Source of the DNA: a virus | IMG/VR virus record: IMGVR_UViG_3300031975_000077 | Coordinates: 1 to 25,969 of that record | Direction: 5' to 3' (one strand) | DNA length: 25,969 bases | Shown here: one piece after another, positions 1 to 12,616 of the stretch | Numbering within the stretch: the stretch's first letter is position 1 | Layout: each line of letters begins with the position of its first letter | Program-made: the position numbers and the translations under genes | The notes under the pieces: generated by a model | The model's input: the letters and a program-made list of their open reading frames with translations, nothing else | Told to the model about the DNA's origin: nothing | Database searches by the model: none

Positions 1-1598
1 ACCGGGCCATTAATTGTGTTAACCGCAGTACAGATAAACAAGTTCAAGCCTGTTGCCCATTCAGCAGATACCCAATCTTCATGCGCAAAAGTATAGCTGC
101 GTTCTGTCCAATTAACACCACCATCATCAGAGGTATAAACACGATTGCCACCGGGGGAAGTTTCATTACCGACTGCAACCAATCGTCCATTTGGTGCACT
201 GCCAACTGTTGGAGAATGTGCAACACTACGAATATCGACATTAGGTGTTGTTCTTGCAGTCCAGCTTGTACCATTAGCTGATGTCATTACACGTTGCGTT
301 GTGCCTGAGATTGCAACAGCAACAAATACATCTGGGCCATCAGCATAGATTACTTCTGCCCATTGCTGATCGAGAGGCATTGTACGTTCTGTCCAGTTGA
401 TACCATCTGGACTTGTAATAATTCCATTTTCACTTGTGCCACCAACAGCACAGAATAGCTCAAGGTCTTCTGACCACGCGACAGACAAGAACCCAGCATC
501 AATTGGAGTTTCTTGCAGCTTCCAATTGTCAAGAATTGTATCATCACTTGATGTTTTTAGCTGATGGAGATTAACAATTTCACTTACAGCACCACCAGAT
601 ATTGTTACTGCACCATTAGCAAAAAACTTACCTGTGGTAGTGCCAGTTAGTTTATAAGTTCCCTTTGGCACAAAAACAGCAAGTGGATCAGATGCAGCCC
701 AAGCATTAGCAAATGCAGCAGCATCATCAGTTACACCATCACCAGCCGCACCAAAGTCTTTGACCGATATAAAGTCTTTTAACCTAGAACTAAGCGTGCG
801 ATCTTGCGCTCCTGTTCCACCTTGATTGTATATTACAATATCAGGATCAGCCGTTAATGACTCGACAGCCTCGCCCATCATAAACTCAATCGCGGCATTT
901 AGCGGTGGAGCCTCTGAGAATGTAAGCGTAGAGCCGGTGAGAGCGAACGTTGCTTTGTTCTGATACACTCCATCTATATAAACTTGGATGTTTGTTTTAG
1001 AGCCAGGAGAAGATGTTAATGCAAAAGCAGTCTTAGATCCCGTGCCTGTAGCCGTGTTAATGATATAGTTCCCACCAAGCACTGCGTTTGTGAAAAAGTC
1101 AGTGGCGTTAGCAGCCGTTACATTGCCTTCTGTGTCAAACTGTACGATCTTATCAGCGCGGTCAGTCGCGGACGGCAATATGTTATTGATGCCTGCGCCC
1201 ACGTCACCTTGCGGGAATTGGATTGCTATGTTGTTGTTTGAGACTTCCTGCTGCACAAGCATCGTAAGCTTATCCAAAGCATCCTCGTGGGCCTCTGCGG
1301 GGAAAGGATCATTTGGTACATAGTTTGTTTCTTGCGTGACCGGCAACACGCGACGGATAAGTACCGTGTTACCGCTAGCAGGAGCCGTCGTAAACACTAC
1401 GTTGCCGCCGCCATCAGCACCTGCGCCAGTGACTGTGTAGTCTGCATCCAGCGTCTGGGCTGTCTCAACCCCGCTTGTATCGTTAACTAATGCGACAGTA
1501 AGGTTGCTGTCTTTAAAGATCTTAAACGAATACGCAAAGCTAGTCGTGCTGCCGTCGCCAGCGTAACTGTTAAAGCTTATGGCTGTTGATACTGTCAT
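1..1598 (-). CDS. Tail fibre / receptor-binding protein, T7-type anchor with BNR-like propeller (3' end outside window)
   Basis: The minus-strand frame starts at ATG 1598 and has no stop through position 1, so at least 532 residues are encoded and the C-terminus is missing. Residues about 1-115 resemble the N-terminal anchor of T7-type tail fibres (YAGDGSTTSFAYSFKIF, then LIRRVLPVTQETNY and FPAEAHEDALDKL), which binds the tail. Residues about 170-240 look like a second beta-rich fibre segment (NIQVYIDGVYQ, TLTFSEAPP). At about 279-295 is the cap motif KDFGAAGDGVTDDAAAF typical of pectate-lyase-type beta-helix fibres, but the helix seems very short. From about 350 come spaced SPDGINW, SANGTSW and SDDGGVNW (starts near 396, 440, 490), like BNR/Asp-box or photosynthesis-system-II-stability-factor propeller blades of 44-50 residues. 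It overlaps the upstream gene by 4 nt (ATGA). Codons shift to more A/T-ending forms after about residue 280, suggesting a swapped receptor-binding module. Function is inferred from the anchor and position. Confidence 0.85.
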   Translation of the reverse strand, partial: MTVSTAISFNSYAGDGSTTSFAYSFKIFKDSNLTVALVNDTSGVETAQTLDADYTVTGAGADGGGNVVFTTAPASGNTVLIRRVLPVTQETNYVPNDPFPAEAHEDALDKLTMLVQQEVSNNNIAIQFPQGDVGAGINNILPSATDRADKIVQFDTEGNVTAANATDFFTNAVLGGNYIINTATGTGSKTAFALTSSPGSKTNIQVYIDGVYQNKATFALTGSTLTFSEAPPLNAAIEFMMGEAVESLTADPDIVIYNQGGTGAQDRTLSSRLKDFISVKDFGAAGDGVTDDAAAFANAWAASDPLAVFVPKGTYKLTGTTTGKFFANGAVTISGGAVSEIVNLHQLKTSSDDTILDNWKLQETPIDAGFLSVAWSEDLELFCAVGGTSENGIITSPDGINWTERTMPLDQQWAEVIYADGPDVFVAVAISGTTQRVMTSANGTSWTARTTPNVDIRSVAHSPTVGSAPNGRLVAVGNETSPGGNRVYTSDDGGVNWTERSYTFAHEDWVSAEWATGLNLFICTAVNTINGP

Positions 1599-4972: not shown

Positions 4973-5161
4973 TTATTTATTTGTTTGAAATTGAACAGGC
5001 ATTTCTACCTCAACTTCAGCCTCAATTGTTTCCGGAGGTTCACCCATGTAAGCAAGATCAATATATTGCTCGCGCGTCATAGGCATATTAAATGCTTTCA
5101 TCATTGCAATAACTGTATCATCACTCCCAGGTTGGGGGGTTGATGCCATCGGCTCTTTCAT
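4973..5161 (-). CDS. Small acidic protein of unknown function (62 aa)
   Basis: I do not recognise this protein. ATG 5161 is preceded by AAGGAG with an 8-nt gap, which supports this start; a TTG directly before it (5164) is possible but less likely. The sequence has an N-terminal SxPQPGSD segment, a Met-rich helix (MMKAFNMPMTREQYIDLAYMG) and an acidic tail (ETIEAEVEVEM). It overlaps the end of the 903-aa gene by 41 nt, so its start and ribosome binding site lie inside that gene and translation is probably coupled. It ends just before a gap with a hairpin and a TATAAT. Position in the virion block suggests a small structural or assembly protein; that is inference. Confidence 0.65.
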   Translation of the reverse strand: MKEPMASTPQPGSDDTVIAMMKAFNMPMTREQYIDLAYMGEPPETIEAEVEVEMPVQFQTNK

Positions 5162-7832
5162 CAACTAGTCTCCTTGTTTCATCAAGCTCAATTTCGCCGT
5201 TCTTGTATCTTTGCCATATAGCGTCAACTTCCGCAACATTTTTTGAGTTTGCTTTAAATGTATCGGTGAACAGTCCGCGCACGGCTTCCCATGTAATTGA
5301 TTGCATTTGTCTTGGCTGGATGCCGCGTTCTGCTGCGGCTCGGCGGTACGCTTCAGCATAGAGCCCGTAGTTGCCAGACACGCCAGTCTTAGCCGACCCT
5401 TTAGTTGTACCCCTGCCTTTAACGCTCATGTTTTTAAAGTTATGGTCAACCTCTAGAGCATTGCCAGACAGTGGACGCAGAAGGCCTGCCGCAACGGCGT
5501 GCGTGTCAATTGTTACATCACCCAATGGAGAGTTGGGATCATAGATGTTGTTGTAGAAGTTACGCACCTTATGGCGCTCGCCCATCAATGGGGAGATAAT
5601 ATTAACATCTCCGTTAGCCTCAATAGCTGCAACAGCTTTGCCTATTTCATTTAAGCTACCCCACGCAGCCTTTTTGGGGTTGCCGGATTTTGTGCGCGCT
5701 AAGTCTAGGAAGTCACCTTCTGGGCCTACAATCGGATAGTCTGGCTTATTGTACGTTTGATCATACAAGCGCACAAACATTGCCTTCAACCCGTTTTCAA
5801 CTTTTGGATCTGGATGGGAAATTTCGGCGTATGTTTTGCCATCTAAGAACTTGCGCATTTCTTGATACGCTGGCTTGTTTAACGAAGGCAGGCCTTCAAA
5901 CGTAGCCAACATCTCTGGTGAAAAAGTAAAATCTCTTTGTTTTACTAGAACATCTAGTGTGCGCCTTGCCAAGCTTACATTCTGATACCAATCCTTTTGC
6001 GGAGATAGCGCTGCCAATGCGCCTGCAATAGATGTATCAGGCACGCCATATTCTTTCTGCCAGCGGTCAGTGATAGCTCGCGCCCCGTCATACCACTTCT
6101 GCGACCTTACCCGCGTACCTTCTGGAACCTTGTCGTGCAAGTAAAGCAGGTTGTCTTTTACATGAGTAATAAATTGCTCTGATGTTTCATCGACTGTAGC
6201 GTTCGGAGCAACACGCATGTTCGGGTAATCTTTAGTGATGTTAACATTAAACTCATAAAGCTTGGGGTCTGCCTTCATTTCTTCTAGACCAACAACCAAA
6301 TCACCAGTTAAGGGATCTTCTGTTGCAGCTTTAGCCGTAGGCAATCGCGTTGATATACGGCCTGGTAAACCTGCGCTAGATACTTTTTTAACTTTTACAC
6401 CGGCAGGGCCAAGTTTTAACGGGGTTACTTCAAACCCCGCCCCTAAAGTTTGCGTAATATATTCTTGCAACTCTGTTTGAGTAAATCCCTTTTGATATGT
6501 TCCTATTGAAGTAACTTGAGACATAGGTTCCGGGCCTGGTGTACCTTTTGCAGTCATAACGTCTCGACCGCGAGTTGTAATAAGAGCTACACCGCCATCC
6601 TCCAAAACCCGCCCAATGTCTAAAACAATTTCATCTCTCATTTTGCGAGGGACTACATTTAACACGTTGAAGTTAGTAACCCTGGAATAAGAGCTATCAG
6701 GTATTTCAGAGGCGTTTATAAACGTCGGATCAAAGCCTTCTTTAGGAAAAGGCTCGTAGGTGTCATAGCCGAGTTTTTTCTGAGATAAGCCTAATCCGGC
6801 TCCAAAGTCTAAAGTTTGCTTGCCTGGGGCTATATCATCCAAAATTTTGTCTGCTTTTTCATAAGTAGGCAGCGTTCCTGCAATTTGTGTTTTTTGGGAA
6901 TTTGATGCGGGAGGTAAATCTATTTCTGGGGCATCTGCCGCACGTCCTGCAGCGGAGACCAATGGGTCTGTTACTGCCGTAGGGTCAACCCCAGAAAATA
7001 GTGTAGTGCCACCCGCTCGGTCTGCCATTCGTGCATCAGCCTGCTTGCCTAGATCAATCAAAGCAGAGCGCATTCCAGGTATTTGCTGTTTAATAGCTTT
7101 AGCCCCTGCTTTAGTTAGCGGGTATGCCTCGGCTGCTGACAATGCTAAAAACAAAAGTCCAAAACCAATTCCGAATTTGTCACCTGTATTAAGACTGCGT
7201 TTTAACTGATCGACAACCTCTTCGACGCCCATTGCAAATCCAATTGGCGTAAAATCTGCAACAGCAATGCCACTATCAAAAATTCCTGTTCCACCACTTG
7301 TGTCAACTTGACCTATAAAAAAATCGGCAATTTGATCTGCTTGCTGCTGTGGCACGCCAATTGCTCTCATTAGGTCTACTGTGTCTCTGTTCCAGTCATC
7401 ACGCATAAACATGCGATAAGGCTCAACAATATCCGACCCTTCACGCCCTAACCGCCGCACCTCGCTTTCTGTCAGTGGCTTTGTTCTGCCTGATTTTTCT
7501 ACTGGCGTACTAATAACACCAGCCTGTTCAATCTCTTCAGCGCTGTACCCAGCGGCCTCAAGATCTAAAGCGTCAAACCCACCAGACCCAATGGTGCTAA
7601 GACTTTTCGCGTAGCCTTGGAGCTCAGTTATTCGATCAACAGGCTCTTCGCCAAGCTTTACATAACCACCCAATGACATTGGCACGACAATGTCGTTACG
7701 CCCATTTAGCGGGTTGTAGACTGACATCTTATCCTTTGTCATATCGAGAGGTGGTGGATTGCCTGCAATCAGAGTTGCCTCATTGTACTTGTCAATCTCT
7801 TCGTCGGTATCAATCGCTATGAGGTCAGCCAT
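5121..7832 (-). CDS. 903-aa virion-module protein with an embedded methyltransferase-like domain
   Basis: Residues 1-320 include a hydrophobic stretch at about 221-240 (GFGLLFLALSAAEAYPL) that may be membrane-active. Residues about 320-475 read like a class I SAM-dependent methyltransferase: glycine-rich motif LDFGAGLG (341-348), DTYEPF after strand 2 (357-362), NVLNVVP (389-395), and a VLEDGGVALITTRG strand-turn (409-422). The C-terminal half contains ALSPQKDWYQN (608-618), VTIDTHAVAAG (773-783) with a D-x-H pair, and YAEAYRRAA followed by QSITWEAVRGLF. This part resembles a conserved module of unknown function in other large phage proteins. Start ATG 7832 overlaps the previous stop (TAATG) and has AAGGAG upstream. 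Between the 579-aa internal protein and the 1099-aa protein, it is probably packaged or ejected. I cannot tell whether the methyltransferase is active. Confidence 0.8.
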   Translation of the reverse strand: MADLIAIDTDEEIDKYNEATLIAGNPPPLDMTKDKMSVYNPLNGRNDIVVPMSLGGYVKLGEEPVDRITELQGYAKSLSTIGSGGFDALDLEAAGYSAEEIEQAGVISTPVEKSGRTKPLTESEVRRLGREGSDIVEPYRMFMRDDWNRDTVDLMRAIGVPQQQADQIADFFIGQVDTSGGTGIFDSGIAVADFTPIGFAMGVEEVVDQLKRSLNTGDKFGIGFGLLFLALSAAEAYPLTKAGAKAIKQQIPGMRSALIDLGKQADARMADRAGGTTLFSGVDPTAVTDPLVSAAGRAADAPEIDLPPASNSQKTQIAGTLPTYEKADKILDDIAPGKQTLDFGAGLGLSQKKLGYDTYEPFPKEGFDPTFINASEIPDSSYSRVTNFNVLNVVPRKMRDEIVLDIGRVLEDGGVALITTRGRDVMTAKGTPGPEPMSQVTSIGTYQKGFTQTELQEYITQTLGAGFEVTPLKLGPAGVKVKKVSSAGLPGRISTRLPTAKAATEDPLTGDLVVGLEEMKADPKLYEFNVNITKDYPNMRVAPNATVDETSEQFITHVKDNLLYLHDKVPEGTRVRSQKWYDGARAITDRWQKEYGVPDTSIAGALAALSPQKDWYQNVSLARRTLDVLVKQRDFTFSPEMLATFEGLPSLNKPAYQEMRKFLDGKTYAEISHPDPKVENGLKAMFVRLYDQTYNKPDYPIVGPEGDFLDLARTKSGNPKKAAWGSLNEIGKAVAAIEANGDVNIISPLMGERHKVRNFYNNIYDPNSPLGDVTIDTHAVAAGLLRPLSGNALEVDHNFKNMSVKGRGTTKGSAKTGVSGNYGLYAEAYRRAAAERGIQPRQMQSITWEAVRGLFTDTFKANSKNVAEVDAIWQRYKNGEIELDETRRLVDERADGINPPTWE

Positions 7833-10102: not shown

Positions 10103-12616
10103 TTACAAATCAAACGTGTTCATGCGCGGGAACAGTGCCAGAACGGTAAGTGGAAGCGCTTGCTCTTGCCTTACATACAGTCGGTCATCGTCAAACCCGC
10201 CTGGGAACTCTATATTCTTATCACCACTAAATAGTGGGATACCTTCATCCATATCATCGGAGCTGCTTCTGAATGGAATACGATCTGTTTCATTAGAGCT
10301 ATTGCCGATCTCAGCCCCGACCGTTTCAAAGAACCTAGCAGTTAAGGCGTGGACACGCTTTGGCTTACCTTGGCTTGTGCCATCGCGTGAGCCGCTTTCA
10401 ATACGCATTGTCTGCATATTGCTGGTGTACCCAAACCCCAGAGCCGCAGTCGTGGCGCTATAGTTTAGGGTCACGCTGCCATTAGAAACAGTAACGTCAG
10501 GGTGGGCTGCACCATTTGCAATAACCGTCAGGGTTTCGCCTTCCAAGTGATACAAGCCACTAAGCGTTGTTGTCGCCGTTCCATTGTAAGCCAGGCCGCA
10601 GTCCACAAAGAAAGCGCCAGTTGTTACGCTGCCAAAGTCAAACAAATTCATCTTTTCAATATAGCGCTTAGTCACACTGTTGATTGTCCTTTTTACAATC
10701 ATGTACAGTTCGTCTTCGCCTGTTTCAGTCGGCAATGTCGTAATGCTTTCCACAACAGCCTGACCAGTTCCAAACACGCCGCCAACCACATGCTTGTGCC
10801 AGGCAACAATTTGCTCTTCCCTGCGATAACTGAGGCCAAGCAACGTTCCATCAGATCGCAAAGCCCATACTATGCTGTCGGGCTCTTGCTGGTAGGCAAA
10901 CTGCGTCAGACCACCCTTGGTGATATGTTCTGCTAAAATTGTCATATCAGGCGCGGCGTAAGCGTTTACATCGACATCCCCGGCATACTTAAATTCCCTG
11001 ACCTTACGATCTCCACGCTGCAGGAATAGCGTTACGTCAGCAACCTGCACTGGCTCTGCATTGCCAGACCCATAATTGCTGTACTTGCGGATCACAGTGG
11101 TTGTCGGTGTAATGGGGCCATCACTTGTTGCCGACAGTACAAACTCGCCGCCGCCGGTGCCTATTGTTAAAACGCGCGTTGCCGACAAATAACGTATGTC
11201 ATCTGATTGGTTGCTGGCGATTGTGTAGATTAAAGCATCATCTGCCGCAGTGCCTGTATCAAAGTTTTGGTAGTCTGCATTCTTACTAAACCAAAGGGTT
11301 TGCGGGTTTTCATTTGTATTACCAAACACCAAACGTTGTTCAAAGAAGGTTACAACACTGGGCCTGTTGTTTGCACCAGAAAGCGCTTGCGTTACTGGAT
11401 TAATTTTCTGCACGCTTGAAAGCGTAAGATCTGCTGTACCGCCAGACGTGTAAGTTGTGAAGCCCGTGCTATCAACAGCCACCCCTGCCAATGTTTTTAT
11501 TTTAAAGGTGTTCGTTGTGGCGCCAGTAACGATGTAATGGTTACCGTTCAATTGAGTCATCCCACCTACGCTTTGAATGTAAATTACGTCATCATCAAAA
11601 AAAGCATGATCATTGCTAGTTATGACGCACTCGGTTTGTTTTGACGCGCCGGTAATTACTTGCTCTACACCGCCGCCAGGATCAAACGTAGTAAACGATG
11701 TCGTGTTTACGTTGTCACCAGCCTCATCTGTTAGTGTGAATGTATCGGTGGTAACGTTAGCAACCCTAAAGTTTGCCGCATTGATCTCGATCATGCCTTG
11801 GATGTTAGACAACGCAATTTCATCGCCGTTGCTATAGCCGTGCGCTGTAACTGTTAACACTCCAGGGTTGGCCTTCGTAATCGCTGTTATCTTCTTTACC
11901 GCTTCAAGTGGGCCTTGGAATATAGGGATGGAGAACTTCCAAGCGTTGTGGTCTGTGCGCGATAGCTTGCGGACATCATAATTTGGATGCACAAGGTACA
12001 TGGTGTCTGCCGACTGCACAAACCTTATCCCAAAAAGATCTGCCTCTGCATATGGCGTGGCAAGCTCAAATATTTCCGTGGCTGAACCGCCAGACGTGTA
12101 GGCAGTAAATGACGTCGTATTTATAGCGTTACCGAATAAATCTGTCAGTGTGAATGTATTGGTGGTTGAGTTTGCAACAAGGTAATTGCGACCGTTCAAC
12201 TCGGTCATCCCAGAGATGCCTGTAACGAATACCTCATCGCCATTACTTAAAGAGTGCGTTCCACTGGTGATAACACCAGGGCTCGCCTGCGTAATCGCAG
12301 TTATTGTCTTAGCAGACGCATCCAGAACCTGCGCACCGTTGCGATACACACGCATGATCTGGTTTCCAAACTCTAAGATGTAAGTATCAGATGCCTTGAA
12401 TTGAAACGGAAACAAACGTGTTTTTACGTTGCTGCTTTTAACCTCACCCAAAAACTCTGTACCCGGCCTACGTGTAACCCCACCAGAGGGGATGACGATC
12501 ATGTTAGTTAGATCTGCTAAACCCTCCTTGTACTTTTCAATGTTTATGCGGCCCTCAAACTTTGGGCTGATCTCACCCGCCGTAAAAGAGCTAAATGCTG
12601 GGGCAGAGCGAACCAT
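10103..12616 (-). CDS. Tail tubular protein B (nozzle) with three FCCH-like insert repeats
   Basis: The 837-aa protein starts with the typical nozzle signature: AGEISPKFEGRINIEKYKEG and then GGVTRRPGTEFLGEVK (about 45-60). This protein closes the tail tube below the gatekeeper ring and carries the fibres. Residues about 103-178, 243-316 and 321-398 are three copies of one domain, each with a GDEV-type turn, a GMTELNG-like motif, Y-x-V-x-N and a TNTFTL strand ending in TSGG. These look like the E1-type FCCH beta domain often found in phage tail proteins. The remainder has beta-propeller-like strands (FFEQRLVFGNTNENPQTLWFS). The start overlaps the tail tubular A stop (TGATG). The protein is somewhat longer than T7 gp12, which the repeats explain. 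Confidence 0.92.
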   Translation of the reverse strand: MVRSAPAFSSFTAGEISPKFEGRINIEKYKEGLADLTNMIVIPSGGVTRRPGTEFLGEVKSSNVKTRLFPFQFKASDTYILEFGNQIMRVYRNGAQVLDASAKTITAITQASPGVITSGTHSLSNGDEVFVTGISGMTELNGRNYLVANSTTNTFTLTDLFGNAINTTSFTAYTSGGSATEIFELATPYAEADLFGIRFVQSADTMYLVHPNYDVRKLSRTDHNAWKFSIPIFQGPLEAVKKITAITKANPGVLTVTAHGYSNGDEIALSNIQGMIEINAANFRVANVTTDTFTLTDEAGDNVNTTSFTTFDPGGGVEQVITGASKQTECVITSNDHAFFDDDVIYIQSVGGMTQLNGNHYIVTGATTNTFKIKTLAGVAVDSTGFTTYTSGGTADLTLSSVQKINPVTQALSGANNRPSVVTFFEQRLVFGNTNENPQTLWFSKNADYQNFDTGTAADDALIYTIASNQSDDIRYLSATRVLTIGTGGGEFVLSATSDGPITPTTTVIRKYSNYGSGNAEPVQVADVTLFLQRGDRKVREFKYAGDVDVNAYAAPDMTILAEHITKGGLTQFAYQQEPDSIVWALRSDGTLLGLSYRREEQIVAWHKHVVGGVFGTGQAVVESITTLPTETGEDELYMIVKRTINSVTKRYIEKMNLFDFGSVTTGAFFVDCGLAYNGTATTTLSGLYHLEGETLTVIANGAAHPDVTVSNGSVTLNYSATTAALGFGYTSNMQTMRIESGSRDGTSQGKPKRVHALTARFFETVGAEIGNSSNETDRIPFRSSSDDMDEGIPLFSGDKNIEFPGGFDDDRLYVRQEQALPLTVLALFPRMNTFDL

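Follow-up and report, generated by a model that had tools for sequence, protein, structure and literature searches.

Apparent exchange of a cap-plus-propeller tail fibre tip between unrelated phages at a conserved KDFGAxGDGVTDD joint

Enterobacterial phages keep the anchor and exchange the tip, with conserved DNA near the joint, and the conserved DNA motifs near the anchor-tip borders have been proposed to be recombination hot spots (Pas et al., 2023, PMC10408124). T7gp17-like anchors act as general adapters (PMC12692247), and endosialidases were gained by horizontal transfer onto different anchors, as stated in the part of PMC6966330 that cites Stummeyer et al. (2006). The gp17 tailspike of phage K1F (NC_007456) is composed of a PF03906 anchor, a GDGVTDD cap GWGAKGDGVTDDTAAL and a propeller, with hardly any helix, and is alike in this to the fibre described here.

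In this work we analyzed a DNA stretch of 25,969 nucleotides (the window), positions 1 to 25,969 of the IMG/VR virus record IMGVR_UViG_3300031975_000077. It begins with a tail fibre gene which, by comparison with a related fibre gene on another contig (L011), probably lacks its last few hundred codons. The following features were revealed:

3..1598, minus strand: 5' part of the tail fibre gene, 532 codons, from the open reading frame and its translation; the frame runs from 1598 to 3 and is cut by the contig start
1209..1598, minus strand: T7 gp17-type anchor, residues 1-130, from PF03906, PHROG 1640, the Dpo31/Dpo36 match and the model
864..1115, minus strand: DUF4183-like middle module, residues 162-245, beginning with NIQVYIDGVYQNK, from PF13799
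564..773, minus strand: remnant of a pectate-lyase cap, residues 276-345, from PF12708, the model and nucleotide identity to L002 and L011
720..764, minus strand: putative swap joint, codons 279-293, VKDFGAAGDGVTDDA, from the codon alignment and the identities before and after it
3..563, minus strand: predicted first part of a seven-bladed Asp-box propeller, residues 346-532, from motifs, models and L011
393-413, 261-281 and 108-131, minus strand: blade motifs S-x-[DN]-G-x-x-W

The T7-type N-terminus read from the sequence in an earlier note is borne out, on the minus strand, by matches to PF03906 (residues 6-88, E 3.4e-6, 27.2 bits, above the curated Pfam cut-off of 25.2), to the PHROG 1640 tail protein (residues 1-130, E 1.7e-50) and to the solved Dpo31/Dpo36 tailspike structure (E 1.5e-21). 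The motifs YAGDGSTTSFAYSF (residues ~12-25) and LIRRVLPVTQETNY (residues ~80-93) are located inside or beside the PF03906 match, and the anchor is modelled as strands at 5-85 followed by a helix at 102-121. A podovirus morphogenesis module, assigned with PHROGs and comprising TerL, head-tail adaptor, capsid, tail tube and internal virion proteins, is located upstream of the fibre gene. With the anchor match above the cut-off and this module, the gene encodes a T7 gp17-type anchored podovirus tail fibre. The middle module matches PF13799 above the Pfam cut-off in L011 (E 1.3e-6), and the window match (E 0.015) falls short of this cut-off. None of 50,697 phage genomes contained a fibre match spanning at least 80% of the query.

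It should be added that two other virion genes of the window have unusual parts. The tail tubular protein B homologue (10103-12616, minus strand) contains three E1_FCCH-like repeats (PF16190, E 1.4e-29, in three stretches), an apparent insertion relative to PHROG 376. A putative virion protein (5121-7832, minus strand) contains a stretch (LDFGAGLGLSQ...) that resembles a class I methyltransferase to the eye but was not reported by Pfam; it is followed by a match to DUF7178 (E 1e-24).

The pectate-lyase cap that had been placed near residue 280 was recovered by PF12708 at residues 276-320, with KDFGAAGDGVTDD beginning at residue 280; residues 281-340 were modelled at pLDDT ~75-89. Of the 213 positions of the PF12708 model only the first 49 are matched, so the beta-helix after the cap is indeed nearly absent from the window fibre. 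This part of the earlier reading stands; the helix-poor arrangement is, however, no oddity, since K1F gp17 has the same order of anchor, cap and propeller. A tailspike of the pectate-lyase (beta-helix) fold was rejected, with PF12708 limited to 49 of 213 positions, blades in the model from residue ~370 and seven blades in L011.

The window tip consists of blades 1-3 and part of blade 4, as judged from the sequence and the window model. Three spaced S-x-D/N-G-x-x-W blades had been claimed, and the motifs were found at residues 396, 440 and 490; in 20,000 shuffles of the 188-residue tip not one contained even two of them. When seven other phage propellers were combined into a profile, it gave 118 bits with the window and at most 5.5 bits with 50 shuffles. 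A structure prediction of the window part of the fibre returned the anchor, the middle module, a short cap, three blades and part of a fourth, with no continuous beta-helix; in the fold comparison of this model the propeller part alone was informative.

The same tip was found complete in L011, a gene of 905 codons that is in frame through seven blades and a C-terminal domain. Its order is a remnant of a T7-type anchor at the contig end (YTPNDPFPAASHEDALDKL), a different linker, the DUF4183 module, the same cap and seven blade units (six motifs and one degenerate unit), followed by the C-terminal domain of ~150 residues. AlphaFold2 predicted a closed seven-bladed propeller at pLDDT ~90. Among the matches listed to solved folds, the closest were propellers such as YncE, designed proteins with seven blades, and virginiamycin B lyase, which superposes on 294 residues at Z 33.4 and rmsd 2.3 A with 10% identity. 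The likeness is one of fold, not of function. Thus, the tip is predicted to be a seven-bladed Asp-box propeller, and its closure in the window, where the last blades are absent, is inferred from L011. The L011 C-terminal domain (after residue ~750) had no Pfam match and was modelled with low pLDDT. A search with the L011 tip for more members returned L011 itself only, and the NCBIfam matches, BamI and Ycf48, were sub-threshold and belong to generic propellers. Directly 3' of the L011 propeller fibre gene there is a second tailspike gene (L011:2829-4493), which encodes no long anchor itself and has a degenerate cap, VLDFGALGDRVTNDAVAIQ, close to its beginning.

To describe the relationship of the fibres, identities were calculated from codon-level alignments for the 120 codons upstream of KDFG and for the part downstream. 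Two close relatives of the tip were found, L002 and L011. Over the tip including most of the cap, nucleotide identity of the window is 97% to L002 and 82% to L011. The window and L002 are 55% identical before the joint and 97% identical after it, the latter figure resting on ~370 nt because both contigs end inside the shared tip: from KDFG to the L002 end 357 of 372 nucleotides are the same, with eight synonymous and six amino-acid codon differences. The L002 anchor is of another type, which does not align with that of the window and matches the N-terminus of the Roseobacter phage CRP-5 fibre (75.8%) as well as the Lentibacter phage ICBM2 fibre. The primases of L002 and Roseobacter phage CRP-4 share 66% identity, and by its anchor and primase L002 is a Cobavirinae-type (CRP-4 type) contig. 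No match to the virion genes of the window was found in L002 or L011, with the fibre as positive control; the tip is thus common to unrelated phages. Separately, gp56 of Roseobacter phage CRP-4 (L046:38766-39059) looks like an L002-type anchor, a 97-residue stub from which the tip is absent.

The mirror of the L002 pattern was revealed in L003 and L006, which are 74% identical to the window before the joint and 40-45% after it; these two are 96% identical to each other before the joint and 42% after it. In general, the window shares its upstream part at 68-74% nucleotide identity with other relatives whose tips are of the beta-helix type: the tips of L003, L004, L006 and L007 run on without blades, and that of L007 has a PF13229 helix. 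Since the identity breaks at the same codons (~279-293) in several pairs, the joint is not peculiar to the window gene. With the break at the cap motif, the exchanged unit is the cap plus the propeller. Identity of 97% after the joint and 55% before it, on anchors and in genomes that are unrelated, gives a sharp boundary and marks a horizontally exchanged module; the alignments support its movement from phage to unrelated phage through a single joint, KDFGAxGDGVTDD. The earlier note had supposed a recent swap of a propeller onto a conserved anchor; the L002 comparison supports the swap, but not the transfer of a propeller alone, since the cap moved too.

The same note had described a codon shift after about residue 280 and proposed a plot along the gene. 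GC3 indeed falls from 0.48 in codons 1-279 to 0.245 in codons 280-532 (z 5.8). The best change point, codon 246, lies somewhat upstream, so the shift holds and its exact site does not. Compared with the late genes of the window, codon usage differs in residues 280-532 (p 2.6e-5) and not in 1-279 (p 0.29). A similar GC3 drop after the joint was found in L003, L004 and L006, which have no propeller, and was absent in L007. The drop is thus typical of many distal modules in these phages and by itself neither dates nor identifies the swap; codon bias, to which the note had given weight as evidence of the swap, was rejected as its specific proof.

We consider it very probable that the gene encodes a modular podovirus fibre whose tip was gained by recombination at the KDFGAxGDGVTDD codons and whose distal unit meets the host surface. 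The T7-type anchor would hold the fibre (or short tailspike) on the tail hub, followed by a spacer. The fibre is probably a homotrimer, and the propellers presumably bind a surface structure; for the window tip, a receptor-binding role is suggested by its position and architecture. The distal unit would consist of the short cap, the seven-bladed Asp-box propeller and a C-terminal domain, the last as in the full-length relative L011. The same tip occurs on different anchors and different tips occur on the same middle part, and hence the conserved cap codons would serve as the common joint at which tips are exchanged. Recombination as the mechanism, gain of the tip by the window phage as the direction, and a tip devoid of enzymatic activity are the likely components of this scheme. 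It would mean that a recent tip exchange between phage families has been caught with its crossing point within a few codons, the same joint carrying other tips in relatives.

Could the pattern have arisen otherwise? Reads of two phages might have been joined by the assembly at the conserved KDFGAxGDGVTDD. Mis-joining is conceivable there, the joint being conserved DNA, and both contigs stop within the common tip, as is typical when several genomes share sequence; these contigs are the window and L002. Yet the frame is unbroken through the joint, and the tips of the window and L002 differ at 15 of 372 nucleotides and hence do not come from one molecule; moreover, in a third contig, L011, this joint is likewise followed by this tip and preceded by a T7-type anchor remnant, and the break recurs in L003 and L006, whose tips are different. 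An assembly chimera at the joint in the window is therefore unlikely, and we leave it only a slight chance. The chance is slighter still that no recent swap took place, i.e., that anchor, cap and propeller are an old combination and the change in composition reflects only different selection on the distal fibre. The lower GC3 downstream of the joint in propeller-less relatives would fit such a history. It is contradicted by L002, which is 97% identical on one side of the joint and 55% on the other, with an anchor and a genome unrelated to those of the window, unless L002 is itself chimeric.

A different question is whether the exchanged tip is an enzyme, sialidase-like or another depolymerase as in K1F, rather than purely binding. 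The domain order is that of K1F gp17 (T7-type anchor, GDGVTDD cap, catalytic propeller), the window tip contains Asp boxes, and residues 431-505 gave weak sialidase matches with phmmer (E 0.0097). On the other hand, the endosialidase propeller PF12217, PF12219 and PF13884 have no match in the window or L011, and the R-I/L-P motif is absent from the propeller part of the window as read in the sequence. No sialidase occurs among the fold matches listed for the window or L011 model, the best ones included, which by itself excludes nothing. We regard an enzymatic tip as rather improbable and prefer the exchanged tip as a binding module.

As for the host, the window phage resembles the HTVC010P group in its capsid protein (65-71%) and TerL (55-57%), and this group is best known from SAR11. 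GC content is 0.486 in the window phage, 0.320 in HTVC010P and 0.452 in CRP-4. Since the tip is common to the CRP-4-type contig L002, a Roseobacter-like host is a reasonable guess, and this HTVC010P-group phage may infect such a host rather than SAR11. In a wider form, the DNA of SVKDFGAxGDGVTDD would be a general joint for tip exchange between marine podoviruses of unrelated families, namely the HTVC010P group and Cobavirinae, even where the tips have entirely different folds (beta-helix or propeller), with a Roseobacter-like host for the window phage; we offer this combination tentatively, at somewhat less than an even chance. If the tip decides host range, its sharing with L002 allows the host of this uncultured phage to be predicted in a testable way.

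Comparison with described systems revealed several partial likenesses. The K1F gp17 cap matches the window cap over 29 amino acids (48% identical, E 0.001). Unlike the window and L011, K1F gp17 has a catalytic PF12217 propeller with an inserted barrel, a PF12219 stalk and an S74 chaperone, whereas the window propeller is predicted to be of the seven-bladed Asp-box, non-endosialidase type. A K1F-type endosialidase was rejected: PF12217, which gives E 1.8e-222 with K1F, matched neither the window nor L011 at E up to 1. The S74 chaperone (PF13884) had no match in L011, where the C-terminus is complete; that of the window lies off the contig. The Dpo31/Dpo36 tailspike (PDB 28lx, 8ck1) is similar to the window in the anchor (1-122) and in a stretch into the cap (215-335), but the similarity ends at residue 335 and there is no propeller match. 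Fibres of HTVC010P-group pelagiphages share the anchor (41-50% identical over 1-158), while the HTVC010P fibre has neither the cap motif nor the blade motifs.

The same blades terminate many other phage proteins. Asp-box/DUF6242-like seven-bladed propellers with blades ~30-41% identical to the window were found in L013, L014, L016-L018, RAS14, CM1 and the BFVD entries M1PQ47 and A0A6J5SXG5, and viral predicted structures with this propeller are common (M1PQ47, TMt 0.85; A0A6J5SXG5, 'DUF6242', TMt 0.87). Unlike the window, L013, L014 and L016-L018 carry it on other fibre backbones, with no T7 anchor or pectate-lyase cap. It should also be noted that in Synechococcus phage B23 (214733-215599; L009:4001-4468) the propeller match is on the plus strand, whereas b23_0328 and b23_0329 have been annotated on the minus strand; this region may have been annotated on the wrong strand.

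Thus, fibre-tip swapping has precedent, as has the order of anchor, cap and propeller without a helix, known from K1F gp17. What the metagenomic contigs appear to add, as a demonstration from their sequences, is the type of the propeller and a very recent tip transfer between phage families.
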